Below, one piece after another: positions 23,040 to 64,000 of a stretch of DNA of 64,000 bases. The stretch comes from Defluviitaleaceae bacterium (GTDB lineage Bacteria > Bacillota > Clostridia > Lachnospirales > WQUN01). The notes beneath the pieces were generated by a model. The model ran no database searches. It saw only the letters and a program-made list of their open reading frames with translations, and had not been told where the DNA came from. A program made the translations under genes and the position numbers. Every line of letters begins with the position of its first letter. Position 1 is the first letter of the stretch. Where the stretch lies: contig WRDO01000001.1 of the NCBI GenBank assembly GCA_009779755.1, positions 62,001 to 126,000 on the forward strand. Reading direction: 5' to 3'.

Positions 23040-23243
23040 TGAACGGGTTTGCGCCGTGGCTTCGGACGACGGCGCGGCCTGATGCGAAAGCGCACTTAAC
23101 GAAATCGGGCGGTAAGCGGCTCCGTGCGCGAAGTGGTTGCTTCGGTTGCAAGCACCCGACGCCAACCACATAACGCGCCCGTTCGCCGCTTACCGCCCGA
23201 TTTCGTAGGCGCGCTTTCGCATCAGGCTGCGCCGTCTTGCGGG
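23040..23243 (+). repeat. large palindromic repeat element, copy 1
   Basis: Outer arms 23068-23093/23211-23236 (25/26 complementary), inner arms 23100-23119/23186-23205 (20/20 complementary), central core 23120-23185; flank GTGAACGGGTTT...and CTTGCGG shared with copy 3. Confidence 0.85.
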
Positions 23244-25163: not shown

Positions 25164-25302
25164 CCGCAAGACGGCGCGGAGGGATGTGTAAGCGTGCCTG
25201 CAAAATCGGATGATGATCGGCTCCGCTCATCATCCGATTTTGCTAAGCGCGCGTCACATCCCTCCGCGCCGTCGCTCGGAGCCATAACAAAAACCCGTTC
25301 AC
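25164..25302 (-). repeat. large palindromic repeat element, copy 3 (core-deleted, inverted relative to copy 1)
   Basis: Outer arms 25170-25188/25255-25273 (19/19), inner arms 25200-25216/25227-25243 (17/17), 10-nt loop; ends ccgcaag... and ...aaacccgttcac are the reverse complement of copy 1 ends. Confidence 0.85.
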
Positions 25303-34914: not shown

Positions 34915-35101
34915 GTGGGGCGGGGGCGGGCGGATGTTCCAACGCCGCGCTGAACGTAATCGGACGATGAACGGCTCCGTGCGCGAAGTGGTTGCATCGG
35001 TTGACAAGCACCCGATGCCAACCACATAACGCGCCCGTTCGCCGTTCATCGTCCGATTACGTAGGCGCGGCTTATGGAACATCCGCCCGCCCCCGCCCCA
35101 C
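34915..35101 (+). repeat. large palindromic repeat element, copy 2
   Basis: Outer arms 34915-34941/35075-35101 (27/27), inner arms 34955-34974/35042-35061 (20/20), 67-nt core 34975-35041 nearly identical to copy 1 core. Confidence 0.88.
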
Positions 35102-55792: not shown

Positions 55793-56212
55793 ATGGGACA
55801 CCATCTTGACTGCTTGGTAGAGAGCATGTTCCGTCACATCGGCCAAACAGTGACGATCTTCACCACTTCGGGCGGTTTGTCGGGCAATGGCTTTACGGGC
55901 GTACTCTTGAGCGCGGACTGTAATTGCGTACGTTTGCTTTGCGACATCGGCGCACCCCCGGCTTGCCCCGTAGGCTCAGCATGTTGCGACACCATGACAC
56001 CGATGGGCATCCGCGGGAACGAGGAAGGTTTCTTCTGGGGCAACCCGCTTGGCGCTATTTGTGTTATCCCTGTTTGCAAGACATATTGCACGCGGAAGAG
56101 GAACTCACAAAAAAACTGTGATTTTCAAGTCCTTCTGTTTTGGTGGCGTGAGGGCAAATACCCCCGTCATCGCTTGAACACACGCGGAGGGATTCCTTTC
56201 CGCAACCCTTAA
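55793..56212 (+). CDS. Cys-rich hypothetical protein (spore-coat-like/LSm-like look), 3' end probably altered by element insertion
   Basis: SD AAGGAGG; MGHHLDCLVESMFRHIGQTVTIFTTSGGLSGNGFTGVLLSADCNCVRLLCDIG...; last ~40 codons overlap the opposing recombinase ORF and look non-native. Confidence 0.6.
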   Translation: MGHHLDCLVESMFRHIGQTVTIFTTSGGLSGNGFTGVLLSADCNCVRLLCDIGAPPACPVGSACCDTMTPMGIRGNEEGFFWGNPLGAICVIPVCKTYCTRKRNSQKNCDFQVLLFWWREGKYPRHRLNTRGGIPFRNP

Positions 56213-57728
56213 AATACACGTCGAAAGTAGCTTTATCGTGGATGATTATTTTTTCCAACGTTTCTTTCACGGTTTCGCCGTCGAAGGTTTCCGCTTTTAC
56301 AATGCCGGAAATATGTGTTTTAATGGTGTCAATGAATGTTTCGCGTTCGGTTACCTGTTCAGCGGTTTTGTCCAGTTGTATCAATTGGTTATTTAACACG
56401 GTGATTTGCCCGTCAAGCGGTTTTTTTTGTGTTTGCATTTCTTCCTTTGTTATTTCACCGTCCAATCGCAAATCAATCAGCCGCTTGATACGGTTTTCCA
56501 ATTTCGCAATCTTTTTTTGGATGTTTTCTTGGTCACTTCGGATTTGTTCGGTGTCTAACACACCCATGACAATATTCATTGATTCCTTAATTAATTCGTC
56601 CTTGTATTGCACCATATCGTTAAGAGCGGTAAGGAAGGCTTCTTCAAGTATTTCTTGGCGTACCATTTTAGCGGGGCAACCGCCTTTGGTTTCATCCGCG
56701 CCGTACTTAAACGACTTGGCGCAACGCCAGCGTTTCACCTCTTTTTTATTTTTATCGGAGGTGCGGGTATTACGGTTAATAAATATAGAACCGCACAAAC
56801 CGCACACAAGTTTTCCCGAAAAAGGATAACGCGAAGTATGCCTTGAACCTGATTTTTTATTTGTACTGCGACGCGCCAATTCCTGTTGGGTTTTGTCGAA
56901 GGTGTCGCGGTCGATAATGGGGGGATGCGTATTTTGCCTGACGATATATGTGTCTTTGTTTTTATTACGCTTCGTATCTTGCGATAGATAATTCGGGGTA
57001 TGGAACTTCCCTTGCGTTAAATCACCCGCATATTTTTCATTCGATAAAATGCGTTGAACGGAAGTAGCGTCCCATGTTTGTTTTCCGTACCCGGTTTGGA
57101 TATGCTCAGCTTCTAATTCCCTTGCGATGGCGGTTAAACCTTTTCCTTCAACCAAATACTTTTTGAAAATAATACGCACGGATTCAGCTTCGCTTTTGTT
57201 GATAATTAATTTTGCGTTGCGCCCTTTTCCTTCCCGGTCATACCCAAGCATTTTTTGCCCGAAGATAACGCCGTTTTCCATGCTTCGCTTGTGCCCGAAT
57301 TTTACGCGTTCGGAAGTGCGGCGGCTTTCGTCTTGCGCTATACTGGCCATGATGGCCAATCGGAGTTCACCGTCGCCATCGCGGGAATCAATGTTGTCTG
57401 ACGTAAAAATAACGCTTATGCCAATTTCCTTTAGTGCTCGCGTATGTTGCAAGGTATCGACCGTATTGCGGGCGAAGCGGCTGACTTCCTTCGTCAGGAT
57501 AATATCGAAAAGCCCTTTGTGTGCGTCTGTTATCATCTTATTAAAATTTACCCGCTTTTTAGTTGATGTACCCGACAAGCCTTCGTCAATGTATAAAGGG
57601 ACGTATTCCCATTCCGGTTGTTCGTTGATGCGTGATATGAAGTATTTTTCCTGATTCGCCAATGAATTGAGTTGGTCATCCTTGTCGGTGGATACACGAC
57701 AATATGCGGTCACGCGAAGTTTGTCCAT
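56064..57728 (-). CDS. large serine recombinase (site-specific integrase)
   Basis: YCRVSTDKDDQLNSLANQ catalytic Ser motif, SRFARNTVDTLQ, recombinase domain with RILSNEKYAGDL, zinc ribbon CGLCG...C..C, coiled coil. Confidence 0.95.
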   Translation of the reverse strand: MDKLRVTAYCRVSTDKDDQLNSLANQEKYFISRINEQPEWEYVPLYIDEGLSGTSTKKRVNFNKMITDAHKGLFDIILTKEVSRFARNTVDTLQHTRALKEIGISVIFTSDNIDSRDGDGELRLAIMASIAQDESRRTSERVKFGHKRSMENGVIFGQKMLGYDREGKGRNAKLIINKSEAESVRIIFKKYLVEGKGLTAIARELEAEHIQTGYGKQTWDATSVQRILSNEKYAGDLTQGKFHTPNYLSQDTKRNKNKDTYIVRQNTHPPIIDRDTFDKTQQELARRSTNKKSGSRHTSRYPFSGKLVCGLCGSIFINRNTRTSDKNKKEVKRWRCAKSFKYGADETKGGCPAKMVRQEILEEAFLTALNDMVQYKDELIKESMNIVMGVLDTEQIRSDQENIQKKIAKLENRIKRLIDLRLDGEITKEEMQTQKKPLDGQITVLNNQLIQLDKTAEQVTERETFIDTIKTHISGIVKAETFDGETVKETLEKIIIHDKATFDVYFKGCGKESLRVCSSDDGGICPHATKTEGLENHSFFVSSSSACNMSCKQG

Positions 57729-57821
57729 TTTTTTTCTCCCTTCTATTAACCAGGGTAATATTTTTGCCAACGTAGTTTACACTTAAGATGCGGCTTGTTA
57801 AAGTAAACCTCAAATTAATAA

Positions 57822-58100: not shown

Positions 58101-58238
58101 ACGTACCTCCAATAGTGTTTGAAGGTTATTGGAGTAAGCACACTTGATGACGGTTGGGTCGTGAGGGAAAATACAACCCATTGTGCCAAACAACGCCATA
58201 TGCTACATTTTATTAACACAATTTTCTGGAGGTGTATT

Positions 58239-59465
58239 TTGCACCCATACCAAATAATGCCGCCGTTATCGCCGAAGGAATACAACGCCCTTAAAGCGGA
58301 CATCAAAGCCAACGGCGTTTTGGTTGCCATCGAGTTTGACGAGCATGGAAATGTGTTGGACGGACACCATAGACTAAAAGCGTGTCAAGAACTGGGAATC
58401 GTTGATTATCCGCGTGTAGTTCGCGCCGGGTTAAACGAAGAGGAAAAACTCGCCCACGCGCAAGCGGTTAATATGATGCGTCGCCAACTGTCGCAAAAAC
58501 AACGCCGCATTTTTATCGGCGAGCAATTAAAGAAAACACCCGAATATTCCAATCTATTTATAGCGAAGATGTTGGGCGTTACGGACAAAACCGTAAATAC
58601 TGTGCGTCGTAAAATGGAAGCAAATTCAGAGATTCCGAAAATCGACGAACGCCGAAGCGCGGACGGAACCTCACGCGGTCGCCCGGTATCTGTGTATAAC
58701 CCCAACGAAAAAGCCAAACGAATACTCACCCAACCGCAAGTAGTGGAACGTATGCAAAAAGAAGATTGGAGCAACCCCGCATACACCAGAGCCAAGATAA
58801 ACCAAGAAAGCAAGGCCATAAGGAAGAATGTTGCAATCCCATTGTCTGAAGCAGATTGCAAACTTTTATGTGCCGATATCCAAGGGGGTTTGCCCGAAAT
58901 ACCCGATGAAAGCGTAGACGTAATCATCACCGACCCACCCTATGCTCTTAAATACATACCCCTCTACCGCCATCTTTCCCATTTGGCTGCTCGCGTGTTA
59001 AAACCCGGCGGTTCGCTATTATGTATGGGTGGCGGTGCGCACTTCCCCAAAGTGGTGGAAACCTTAAACGATTCAGCCTTGTTATTTCATTGGATGTTAT
59101 GCTTTATTACGACACGGACGGCTGCACCTCTGCACTGGCTGAAGGTTTCATCTCATATCAAACCTATATTTTGGTTGACGAAGGGGAGATATAACGGCGA
59201 TTTGGTAAGTGACCTTATCCACGCGCCGCCGATGAAAGACGACAAGGACTACCACGAATGGGGGCAAAGCGTGGAAGCCTTCACCCAATTGGTGGAGCGA
59301 TTCACCGACCCGGGGCAGGTCATCCTCGACCCTTTCGTGGGCGGGGGGACGACCGCGGTAGCGGCAATAAATAAATCGCGTCGTTTTATCGGCGCGGATA
59401 TTGACCAAAAGTGTATTGAAATAACGCGCAACAGAATATATAACTTATCCCCAAAAAGTTCATAA
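58239..59465 (+). CDS. ParB-like nuclease domain fused to DNA methyltransferase
   Basis: DGHHRLKACQELGI (ParB-type), DVIITDPPYALKYI (DPPY motif), VILDPFVGGGTTAVAAINKSRRFIGADID. TTG 58239 follows GGAGGTG; ATG 58257 also possible. Confidence 0.85.
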   Translation: MHPYQIMPPLSPKEYNALKADIKANGVLVAIEFDEHGNVLDGHHRLKACQELGIVDYPRVVRAGLNEEEKLAHAQAVNMMRRQLSQKQRRIFIGEQLKKTPEYSNLFIAKMLGVTDKTVNTVRRKMEANSEIPKIDERRSADGTSRGRPVSVYNPNEKAKRILTQPQVVERMQKEDWSNPAYTRAKINQESKAIRKNVAIPLSEADCKLLCADIQGGLPEIPDESVDVIITDPPYALKYIPLYRHLSHLAARVLKPGGSLLCMGGGAHFPKVVETLNDSALLFHWMLCFITTRTAAPLHWLKVSSHIKPIFWLTKGRYNGDLVSDLIHAPPMKDDKDYHEWGQSVEAFTQLVERFTDPGQVILDPFVGGGTTAVAAINKSRRFIGADIDQKCIEITRNRIYNLSPKSS

Positions 59466-59531: not shown

Positions 59532-60197
<666 letters not shown>

Positions 60198-60200
60198 AGG

Positions 60201-60226
60201 CTTGCATATTGTGTAGGTTTTGACAG
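60201..60226 (+). repeat. 26-bp inverted repeat, left
   Basis: cttgcatattgtgtaggttttgacag; 23/26 match to reverse complement of 60402-60427. Confidence 0.85.
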
Positions 60227-60283
60227 TTCGTAGGTTAATATTGGTACTGTACCAGTATGAAGTAATACCTGTCAACGAAAATA

Positions 60284-60313
60284 TTGAAAAATACTTTGTT
60301 ATTATCATATGAA
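60284..60313 (+). promoter_or_regulatory. putative promoter inside inverted-repeat segment
   Basis: TTGAAA (60284-60289), 18-nt spacer, TATGAA (60308-60313). Confidence 0.35.
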
Positions 60314-60401
60314 CAATAAAAAACGAACAAAAACCATCCAATATATTCCATATATAGCAAATAGAAAAATATTTGGGAGGGTTTATTATTTTTTGATACT
60401 T

Positions 60402-60427
60402 CTGTCAAAACCTACAGAAGTTGCAAG
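60402..60427 (-). repeat. 26-bp inverted repeat, right
   Basis: ctgtcaaaacctacagaagttgcaag. Confidence 0.85.
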
Positions 60428-60450
60428 TATATGATTGTTGGGAGGTATAT

Positions 60451-62637
60451 ATGTTTTGTTCAAAATGCGGAACAAAATATCCTGAATTGGAAGGTGCAAA
60501 ATTTTGTTCGGGTTGCGGTGCGATTAAAGTGGTTGATACGGCAAACGTTGAACCGACATTAACAATAAAAACCCTTGATGAACATTCTGTAATTGAATCT
60601 ACTACAATGTTTATTTCTAAACCTACCCTTGAACCACAATCTACAGACGTTGATTCTATGTATAAACGTGCATTACTGCTCATGGAAAATAAAGATTTTA
60701 ACAAAGCCAGCCAATTATTTGACCAAGTACTTAATTTGCAACCGGAAAATGCCCGAGCATATATCGGACAATTACTTGCAGAACAAAGGTTAACAAATGA
60801 AGAACAACTAGCCGAACATATCAATCATTGGCAAGATAATTCATTGTTCCAGCGTGCCGTTCGATTTGCTGACGATACTTACAAAGCCATACTGGAAGAA
60901 TACGCCGAAACCGCACATGTTAACCTAATTATACATAAAGCCAAAGAAATGTTTTTAACCGCTGTCAATCCTTCAGCGATAATTATGTTGCTCGAACCCC
61001 TTCGTGGGAATGAAACAGCCGAAAAATTATTGGCATTGTGCAAAACGCGTGATAATAATTTAATGCAAATGTATATACAGCAATTGTTGGACACATCGAA
61101 ATGCAAATCATTAGATGGGTTGGCGCAATGTACAAGCGGGTGGGAAACAACTCCCCTGTTTAATCAAATAATGCACATTGCTGACATCGAAATGAAGCAA
61201 AAACTGACCGCTATTGTCAACGAAGTAAATAAATTAAATAATGAACGGCTAGCACAAGATACCGTCACACGAAATATATTAATTGCTAAAAATGAATCAA
61301 CGAGAAAAAAAAGAAACCTGATAATCACGATTGTCACTCCAATCATAATTATTATTGGTTTGGTGATTTGGATAGTTATACCCCAGCAGCACGAACGCCG
61401 CCACGAAAGTGCCGCCCAATATCTTGACCTTTATCGGGAGGCATTTCGCCAAGGCGATTATGACCTTGCAAGGCGAATGTATAATGATTATTTACGAAAC
61501 CATCTTTCCGGACCGGATTGGTACGAACGGTCTCAATCAATAGCATATCTTGGAGAGTTCGTATGGCGTGGAAGCCCTACATCCCGTGAAAACTTAACTA
61601 ATAGTTTAATGACGCAACTTGATGACCGAATAAACAATGCCTTAATAGCTGAGCGTGCATTATCACACGCAGCTTCAGGTGATTGGGAAATGGGATTCAA
61701 CCTGTTAGCCAGCGAAAGAATTACGACAACTTATATTCCCGAAAGAATAATAAAAGAACTATTTACATTTTTTCTGGAATCCATTAACCCCAAGCAATTA
61801 CATATTTTGCCAAAGGATTCATCTTGGATACAAGCATCATACTTTGATTTTCATAATTCTTCATTGTATTGGTTAAATCAAGATGGTACGGTGGATACGT
61901 TCAACGGAAGAAATGATATACGTTCTTTATCGAATATTATACGCATCGAAATGATTGGCGACCCCAATGATTTTTTCTTTATATATGCGGCACTGGATAA
62001 TAATAATGTACTGCTCGTTGAAGATTATCGAGAAACATACACAATATATGATGTATTGGATTTTGACATAAACAGGAATCTTGTTGTTGTTATTCACAGG
62101 AACGGTACAGTGAGTTATCAACAGTTGAATCAGCACCATGAATATAGCCTCGATAATGTTAGTCAATGGAATAATATAGAAATGGTTTGGATTGCAACAG
62201 AATTCCTACGGAGGGACACACACTTTACGTACCCAAATCAACCTGGCCAAAATCGACGTGAAGAACACCGCAACCAAGGTGTTAATAGAGTGGATACTCA
62301 TGTAACTTTTCTAGTTGCAAGAACGCGTACTGGAGAAATATTAAATTCCGGTCAAAATCGTATTATGTATACTGACCAACGACGGGTTGATGTCGGCGGT
62401 CGCGGTGGTACTATATGGTTAAATATAGATAGGGCATTCGTAAGATTTGAACCGGCACCTACCCCATTTCATCTTATGGTTGAGCGACCCATACAACCAT
62501 CAATCAACATCCGAACACGAAATTGGAATTCCCCTATCATAATTACACGCCCTTTTGATGGACAATGGCTTGTTGAACAATTTGGTGGCAATGACGAGGA
62601 TTATTTTGATTATTGGAATTATGACGATTCGTATTAA
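60451..62637 (+). CDS. zinc-ribbon/TPR-like membrane protein with large C-terminal domain
   Basis: MFCSKCGTKYPELEGAKFCSGCG; TPR-like MYKRALLLMENKDFNKASQLFDQVLNLQPENARAYIGQLL; single TM (LIITIVTPIIIIIGLVIWIVI); long C-terminal region. Confidence 0.75.
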   Translation: MFCSKCGTKYPELEGAKFCSGCGAIKVVDTANVEPTLTIKTLDEHSVIESTTMFISKPTLEPQSTDVDSMYKRALLLMENKDFNKASQLFDQVLNLQPENARAYIGQLLAEQRLTNEEQLAEHINHWQDNSLFQRAVRFADDTYKAILEEYAETAHVNLIIHKAKEMFLTAVNPSAIIMLLEPLRGNETAEKLLALCKTRDNNLMQMYIQQLLDTSKCKSLDGLAQCTSGWETTPLFNQIMHIADIEMKQKLTAIVNEVNKLNNERLAQDTVTRNILIAKNESTRKKRNLIITIVTPIIIIIGLVIWIVIPQQHERRHESAAQYLDLYREAFRQGDYDLARRMYNDYLRNHLSGPDWYERSQSIAYLGEFVWRGSPTSRENLTNSLMTQLDDRINNALIAERALSHAASGDWEMGFNLLASERITTTYIPERIIKELFTFFLESINPKQLHILPKDSSWIQASYFDFHNSSLYWLNQDGTVDTFNGRNDIRSLSNIIRIEMIGDPNDFFFIYAALDNNNVLLVEDYRETYTIYDVLDFDINRNLVVVIHRNGTVSYQQLNQHHEYSLDNVSQWNNIEMVWIATEFLRRDTHFTYPNQPGQNRREEHRNQGVNRVDTHVTFLVARTRTGEILNSGQNRIMYTDQRRVDVGGRGGTIWLNIDRAFVRFEPAPTPFHLMVERPIQPSINIRTRNWNSPIIITRPFDGQWLVEQFGGNDEDYFDYWNYDDSY

Positions 62638-62668: not shown

Positions 62669-63208
62669 ATGTCATCAATTGCCAAAAGAACATGGCTATG
62701 TGCGTGTGGCGTTAAAAATGATGGTGCCTTAAGAAATTGTGCAAATTGCGATTTGGAAAAACAACGTTTGCTGAGTATAGTTCCGGGTGCTGAAACGACG
62801 GAGGAACAAACCATTCCGTCAGTACCACCACCAATATCAATACCAACGCCGATACCCCAAACACCTCCCCAAGCAAACCCCGTGCAGTTGGTTCAACCGT
62901 ATGCTTCTTCTCCGGCATATACCCCCCCTCCGTCCCCTTATGCAGTCCCGTCGCCAAACCCACAATATATTCATGTTGCTCAACCCCATGTGAAATCTAA
63001 AGTAGGGCGAAATATTTTTTTATTCTTGCTTGTCGCTGTAGCTGCATTATTAGGTATGAGTGCATTGGGTGTATTTTGCATTGGTGAAACGCTGGGTATT
63101 ACACCCGATTGCGGCAACCCAATATGCAGAAACAGTTCCACCATATTTACCAATTTTTGTTCGCGGTGTGGTGACGCGATTCAACGTATAGATGGAATTT
63201 TCCGCTAA
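62669..63208 (+). CDS. hypothetical protein with N- and C-terminal zinc-binding Cys motifs, Pro-rich linker and one TM
   Basis: WLCACGVKNDGALRNCANC; CGNPICRNSSTIFTNFCSRCG; TM IFLFLLVAVAALLGMSALGVFCI. Confidence 0.65.
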   Translation: MSSIAKRTWLCACGVKNDGALRNCANCDLEKQRLLSIVPGAETTEEQTIPSVPPPISIPTPIPQTPPQANPVQLVQPYASSPAYTPPPSPYAVPSPNPQYIHVAQPHVKSKVGRNIFLFLLVAVAALLGMSALGVFCIGETLGITPDCGNPICRNSSTIFTNFCSRCGDAIQRIDGIFR

Positions 63209-63271: not shown

Positions 63272-64000
63272 ATGCCTATTGATGTATCCAGTTATACCAA
63301 ACGCGCCTTTCTTGAAATTTCATATGGGGAATTTGATAAAGCAAGTGTATTGCTTGACCAAATATTAAACGTTGACCCTGAAAATGCGCAAGCATACATT
63401 GGACAATTATTGGTGGAACATAAACTTATAGATGAAAAATTATTAGCTGAACATATCCCCGATTGGCAAGATAGTTCTTTGTTCCATCGGGCGATACGAT
63501 TTGCAAATAATACGTACAAAGTAACGCTAAATGGATATGTTGATACCGTACGAAATAACCGTATTTTATACGATGCAAAAAAATTATTATCAACCGTTGC
63601 GAATCCGGCTACGGTTATTTTAATGCTTGAACCTCTCCGGGGAAATGTCACCGTTGATGCGCTGTTGGCGCAATGTGAAACCCGAAAAACCGACATCGTA
63701 GAAATGTATATCCAGCAATTATTGGATATATGCAAATGTAACAGCCTTGATAATCTAGCGACATGTACTAATCAATGGGAAACAACGTTGTTATATAAAC
63801 AGTTAAAGCTCATTGCAAACGATGAAATGAAACAACGATTGAACATGTTGGAAGATGATTTAATTAAATATTATGATGAACTTAGTAAAAAAGAAAAAGA
63901 ACGAGAGTCATTGGAAAACGTTAGACTTATTAAAACGTATAAATCACTAGGTATAGGCGTTGCAGGCATTGTTTTATTGGTCATTATTATAATTAACGGA
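63272..64000 (+). CDS. TPR-like membrane protein paralogous to 60451..62637, truncated by window end
   Basis: Translated by eye from ATG 63272 (absent from ORF track because it runs off the window): MPIDVSSYTKRAFLEISYGEFDKASVLLDQILNVDPENAQAYIGQLLVEHK...; colinear with the 60451 gene, ends in a TM. Confidence 0.75.
   Translation, partial: MPIDVSSYTKRAFLEISYGEFDKASVLLDQILNVDPENAQAYIGQLLVEHKLIDEKLLAEHIPDWQDSSLFHRAIRFANNTYKVTLNGYVDTVRNNRILYDAKKLLSTVANPATVILMLEPLRGNVTVDALLAQCETRKTDIVEMYIQQLLDICKCNSLDNLATCTNQWETTLLYKQLKLIANDEMKQRLNMLEDDLIKYYDELSKKEKERESLENVRLIKTYKSLGIGVAGIVLLVIIIING

Follow-up and report, generated by a model that had tools for sequence, protein, structure and literature searches.

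A candidate invertible promoter switch beside a Sin-like small serine recombinase in a Defluviitaleaceae bacterium

A promoter inverted by a serine recombinase is a mechanism known in kind, as in Hin or Mpi. Mpi of Bacteroides fragilis is a small serine recombinase which acts on invertible promoters in trans, at many scattered sites, and the hin gene lies inside its own invertible segment. In the fim switch of E. coli (fimS, FimB/FimE), the tyrosine recombinase genes lie beside a short invertible promoter segment that serves one target operon. RecV is a tyrosine recombinase that acts on several switches, and Sin of Staphylococcus aureus carries out resolution between directly repeated sites, with DNA bending of the HU type. 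Hin, of the flagellar phase switch of Salmonella, is a serine recombinase acting at two inverted 26-bp hix sites, and the resulting inversion of a promoter sets the expression of the next gene; the reaction is enhancer-dependent (Fis, with a 65-bp enhancer) and inverts about 1 kb (PMC3798978). The fimS segment is 296 bp (PMC5903667). Short invertible segments also control next-door genes in Clostridia, including the Cdi switches of Clostridioides difficile (PMC5903667, PMC7446863), and previously undescribed clostridial inversions lie beside chemotaxis and signalling genes (PMC5903667). In one study, the strongest link between invertons and invertases, drawn mostly from Clostridia, is with a tyrosine family (PMC11892184).

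The locus described here lies near the end of the window, by which we mean the whole stretch of 64,000 nucleotides that was analysed. Like Hin/hix, it has a serine recombinase, two inverted 26-bp sites and a promoter segment before the next gene; unlike in Hin, the recombinase gene lies outside the segment, beside the left site, and the segments of its family are 80-250 bp. It resembles fim in having the recombinase gene outside and beside a short promoter segment with one target operon, but the recombinase is of the serine and not the tyrosine type, and as a serine recombinase (PF00239) it differs from RecV and the Cdi switches as well. We read the locus as a cis-acting phase switch in which an invertible promoter would be flipped by the adjacent recombinase, the window holding one assembled orientation, and we give this reading a probability of roughly 85%. 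Its features are as follows.

59595 to 60197, plus strand: small serine recombinase of 200 amino acids (PF00239, E 5e-26), the proposed dedicated invertase
60201 to 60226, plus strand: left recombination site, CTTGCATATTGT-GT-AGGTTTTGACAG, an inverted-repeat arm with proposed core GT at 60213-60214
60227 to 60401, no strand: proposed invertible segment of 175 bp, enclosed by the arms; segments at the same position are inverted in relatives
60246 to 60275, minus strand: predicted leftward promoter, TTGACA (60275-60270), N18, TACAGT (60251-60246), with an extended -10 TG; two separate scans agree on it
60402 to 60427, minus strand: right recombination site, the inverted copy and second arm, with core GT on the minus strand at 60414-60415
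60440 to 60445, plus strand: ribosome-binding site GGGAGG of the target gene, read from sequence
60451 to 62637, plus strand: first target gene, with an N-terminal zinc ribbon, TPR, one transmembrane stretch (read from sequence) and a large extracytoplasmic part (PF13240, PF07719)
62669 to 63208, plus strand: second operon gene, an ORF with cysteine-motif ends and one transmembrane stretch, and with no Pfam match
63272 to 64000, continuing as L089:15273-16940, plus strand: third operon gene, with TPR, transmembrane and RCC1-repeat parts (RCC1_2, E 3e-12)

The initial annotation had described a 26-bp inverted repeat around 175 bp lacking a convincing ORF, and both parts of that description stand. 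The arms (left CTTGCATATTGTGTAGGTTTTGACAG, right CTGTCAAAACCTACAGAAGTTGCAAG) pair at 23 of 26 positions and are 88% complementary, and their score is 18.5, whereas 300 dinucleotide shuffles of the surrounding 350 bp averaged 8.8 and never exceeded 13.5. The enclosed segment is AT-rich and has no gene-like ORF inside it. The left arm begins 3 nt past the recombinase stop TAA (60195-60197), rather than 4 nt as first counted, and the right arm does end 23 nt short of the target-gene ATG, as had been stated. The GT cores of the two window sites, which agree, were placed by homology with sites of the same genus such as that of L036, CTACAGAAAGGT-GT-AGGTTTTTATAG. The inner half-sites are identical (CTGTCAAAACCTAC) and the outer half-sites agree at 9 of 12 positions. 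Within the arms there is a perfect 15-nt core, TGTAGGTTTTGACAG, with no full-identity copy elsewhere in the window. Across the genome the 14-nt arm core GTAGGTTTTGACAG has exact matches only in its own two arms, which is unlike the scattered sites of Mpi; its single 1-mismatch match (contig C13) has no inverted repeat or partner around it. Elsewhere in the window, the long inverted repeats at 34915-35101, 23068-23236 and 25170-25273 lie in GC-rich sequence and are stronger than the pair at 60201-60427, with arms of up to 61 nt lying 66-117 nt apart.

The closest solved structure to the recombinase is the Sin resolvase (E 9e-30, 107 bits), followed by Tn3 and gamma-delta resolvases at 60-65 bits, and the chains named DNA-invertase reach only 49-50 bits, so that the enzyme lies nearer to Sin and the Tn3 resolvases than to the solved chains of the Hin/Gin type. 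It also matches the DNA invertase family phrog_125 (E 1e-44, residues 1-196) and aligns over its full length to Tn3 and gamma-delta resolvases and to phrog_125; its isolated C-terminus gave no HTH match in Pfam. The Mpi family model NF009949 gave the enzyme 27 bits where its curated cut-off is 272, a further difference from Mpi. Among 26 relatives the catalytic residues R7, S9, R67 and R70 are invariant and D66 is at least 90% conserved. Judged by these matches, the enzyme is Sin/resolvase-like rather than Hin-like, and the agreement of the arms with the 26-bp length of hix sites, which the initial annotation had pointed out, is insufficient to place it in the Hin family. To our knowledge, Fis is not to be expected in Clostridia.

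Several other genes of the neighbourhood and genome belong to this description. A ParB-like domain fused to a phage-type N6/N4 DNA methyltransferase (58119-59465, plus strand) lies directly upstream of the proposed invertase. Some 2 kb from the invertase is a large serine recombinase of the integrase type, CcrC-like (56064-57770, minus strand; phrog_95, E 4e-132), which may mark where an integrated element ends. The genome carries two further recombinases of the same family as the small enzyme, one with its own clear inverted repeat 142 nt past its stop (L039, G000 C2) and the other with an 8-nt pair only (L054, G000 C24). A distant serine recombinase of 33% identity lies just past the window between imperfect 43-bp inverted repeats (L034 1400-2147, G000:C1).

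The orientation of the promoter is the point on which our reading departs from the initial annotation, which had proposed a rightward TTGAAA-N18-TATGAA inside the segment. That candidate is weak and is outscored by the predicted leftward promoter, which reaches 13.9, against 9.1 for the best rightward candidate, and has the position and direction seen in most relatives. Since the best predicted promoter lies on the minus strand and points away from the operon, the window appears to have been assembled in the OFF orientation. In this orientation the predicted promoter would start roughly 20 bp away from the left arm and run straight into the recombinase gene, antisense to it; when the segment is flipped in silico at the GT cores, the predicted promoter faces 60451. 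We found no terminator inside the segment, and its hairpin is weak (z -1.8). A palindrome, GGTACTGTACC, at 60244-60254 overlaps the -10 of the leftward promoter and could be an operator or a product of chance.

The association between enzyme and repeat extends well beyond the window. We collected relatives of the recombinase from 60 related genomes, the GTDB genome collection and IMG/VR, giving 202 non-redundant loci, and scored the 400 bp past each recombinase stop for an inverted repeat with a score of at least 13 starting at most 40 nt from the stop. Such a repeat was found in 88 of the 202 loci. In control stretches, even with the position condition dropped, the counts were 3 of 199 upstream of the gene and 3 of 183 at 1.5 kb downstream, and shuffled downstream stretches gave mean repeat scores of about 8-9. 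The rate by identity to the window enzyme was 53/84 at 60% or above, 17/41 at 55-60%, 12/40 at 50-55% and 6/37 below 50%. An enlarged set had the repeat in 125 of 259 loci, within 40 nt of the stop in 119 of the 125; about half of the recombinase relatives in the set have no detectable paired site near the gene. Many anaerobic Firmicutes carry the module, as do assemblies that bear the labels Synergistaceae, Coriobacteriales and Eggerthellaceae.

The anatomy of these sites is as expected for inversion sites of a serine recombinase. Clear dyads (n=108) form a quasi-palindrome around a 2-bp core, which is non-palindromic in 100, as in the quasi-palindromic sites of about 26 bp of the Hin type, and is GT in 67; the cores match between the arms in 122 of 125 loci. 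A sigma-A-type promoter lies close inside one arm in 67 of the 125 segments, compared with 8% of shuffled segments, with the end of its -10 usually 15-25 bp in from the arm. In the assembled loci 59 of these promoters point toward the recombinase and 8 away, and in the first set every one of the longest alignable segment pairs is plus/plus; flipping is therefore not necessarily frequent. A terminator in the segment was considered as a general design, a hairpin upstream of the promoter being visible by eye in several loci, and was set aside after a systematic test gave 7 of 65 against 2.6 expected.

In 94 of the 110 loci where a next gene was found, it reads in the same direction as the recombinase. 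These first genes are of many kinds and include those for AMP-binding and condensation domains of peptide synthetases, glycosyltransferases, zinc ribbons, chemotaxis receptors, flagellin-like proteins and LRR_5 or BspA-type repeat proteins, among others; chemotaxis and signalling, the class of target reported beside clostridial inversions (PMC5903667), is thus found in this family too. Two loci differ in layout. At L050 there is one dyad site past the recombinase stop, and site-like matches lie about 2.7-2.8 kb upstream, perhaps bounding a larger invertible stretch. At L257 the stretch past the recombinase (565-881 of a 1400-bp extract) has 80% self-complementarity across 325 bp, a length well in excess of the site arms.

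One pair of orthologous loci carrying the segment in opposite orientations, L313 and L314, comes from two genomes of one genus. Over 1229 bp their recombinase sides share 99.0% identity, and over 1262 bp their downstream sides share 88.6%, both plus/plus, but the 207-bp segment between them aligns only in inverted orientation (85%, E 3e-63). Flipping L314 in silico at the cores raises its identity to L313 from 62% to 86%, and the long identical block then holds TTGACA-N17-TATACT. This promoter points toward the target gene in L313 and away from it in L314; the target, which begins with a zinc ribbon (MFCGQCGSELSENDRFCPKCG) like that of the window, is intact in the ON-oriented L313 and is cut short by an early stop codon in the OFF-oriented L314. 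On the same kind of alignment L100 and L109 make a second clear flipped case, with plus-strand flanks of 89% and 96% identity and an inner alignment score of 57 inverted against 21 plus, the maximum in 3000 shuffles being 42. The segments of L318/L342, L269/L275 and L257/L263 are inverted too, with downstream flanks that are less similar or do not align. The pair L151/L163 had seemed flipped by BLAST and was not used, the match falling in the arms and the gene end. No flipped copy was found in the genus of the window, where G001-G004 have neither a close match to the segment nor a full orthologue of the target gene.

Because the window sites are less palindromic than most (dyad score 10/20, below most of the family, with the automatic core call off there), the locus might instead be a locked relic, that is, an ancestral invertible promoter whose sites have decayed, the outer half-sites being non-palindromic, and whose segment is fixed OFF. 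A precedent of sorts exists in L255, an orthologue of the L100 target, from which the recombinase is gone and at which a relic of the site remains. We consider this unlikely, while leaving it a small but real chance: the recombinase ORF is intact with its catalytic residues conserved, the identity of the inner half-sites, the matching cores and the 9/12 agreement of the outer halves all argue against decay, and the outer halves are likewise divergent in sites of the same genus.

The kinship with Sin, Tn3 and gamma-delta and the presence of the large serine recombinase 2 kb upstream would also be in keeping with a res-like or regulatory stretch to which a resolvase binds in order to resolve a mobile element, with inversion incidental. 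The initial annotation had named such a role as one that would overturn its proposal. Resolution needs directly repeated sites, however, and here, unlike at the sites of Sin, both sites and cores are inverted and the proposed product is an inversion; a 281-bp query over the segment is single-copy in the 3.1-Mb assembly, and the segments of relatives are flipped. We therefore hold this explanation to be very improbable. A long terminator or hairpin (a terminator was also raised in the initial annotation), or a MITE-type insertion, in either case formed without recombination, would suit an inverted repeat at the 3′ end of a gene around an AT-rich, ORF-free segment, but a spacing of 175 nt makes no terminator, the segment has no repeat copy elsewhere in the assembly, and neither idea predicts the family-wide association with the recombinase stop or the flipped orthologues, so that we give it next to no weight.

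The reading as a phase switch, which the initial annotation had also put forward, accordingly keeps its design, strongly supported by the family arms, the cores, the placement of the promoter and the flipped orthologues; what did not stand is the direction, the assembled promoter facing away from the operon. In the proposed mechanism, the recombinase encoded at 59595-60197 would bind the two sites of about 26 bp directly past its own gene and pair them, cut at the 2-bp GT core, and rejoin the ends so that the roughly 200 bp between are inverted. In the assembled OFF state, the promoter would aim back at the recombinase gene and leave the zinc-ribbon/TPR operon without a good promoter. In the inverted ON state it would aim right, and the transcript would cross the right site and then the ribosome-binding site, which stays in place, before entering the operon; the GGGAGG lies outside the segment and is therefore kept in both orientations. 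The target is apparently an operon; it comprises three or more genes, in which zinc-ribbon, TPR, membrane and RCC1-repeat parts occur, the third gene being a paralogue of the first (45% identity). The adjoining recombinase probably flips the window segment; from the arrangement and its relatives we infer its catalysis there, the activity of the promoter and the setting of the operon ON or OFF by orientation.

A wider proposal is more tentative, and we regard it as possible rather than probable: that these loci are widespread self-limiting micro-switches, each made of a Sin-like recombinase and a promoter segment of 80-250 bp, in which the OFF promoter would brake the recombinase by antisense transcription and the ON state would free it to flip back. 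The fixed placement of the segment directly past the recombinase stop and the 59:8 ratio of assembled OFF to ON would both follow from such a brake. The OFF state may thus restrain the recombinase and be self-stabilising, which fits that bias.

Our search of open-licence papers found no description of a module made of a small serine recombinase and an adjoining promoter segment, and some loci of the family may already have been catalogued. In Bacteroides and C. difficile invertible promoters are a familiar feature, but for most of the inversions reported in other Clostridia no enzyme has been assigned; the small Sin-like recombinase, together with its attached switch, is a candidate for that role. 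With enzyme, sites and promoter within about 1 kb, the whole switch could be moved to a test plasmid. Where such a switch is present, phase-variable genes could be predicted from sequence alone, and the switch would let a gut bacterium turn the next genes on or off.
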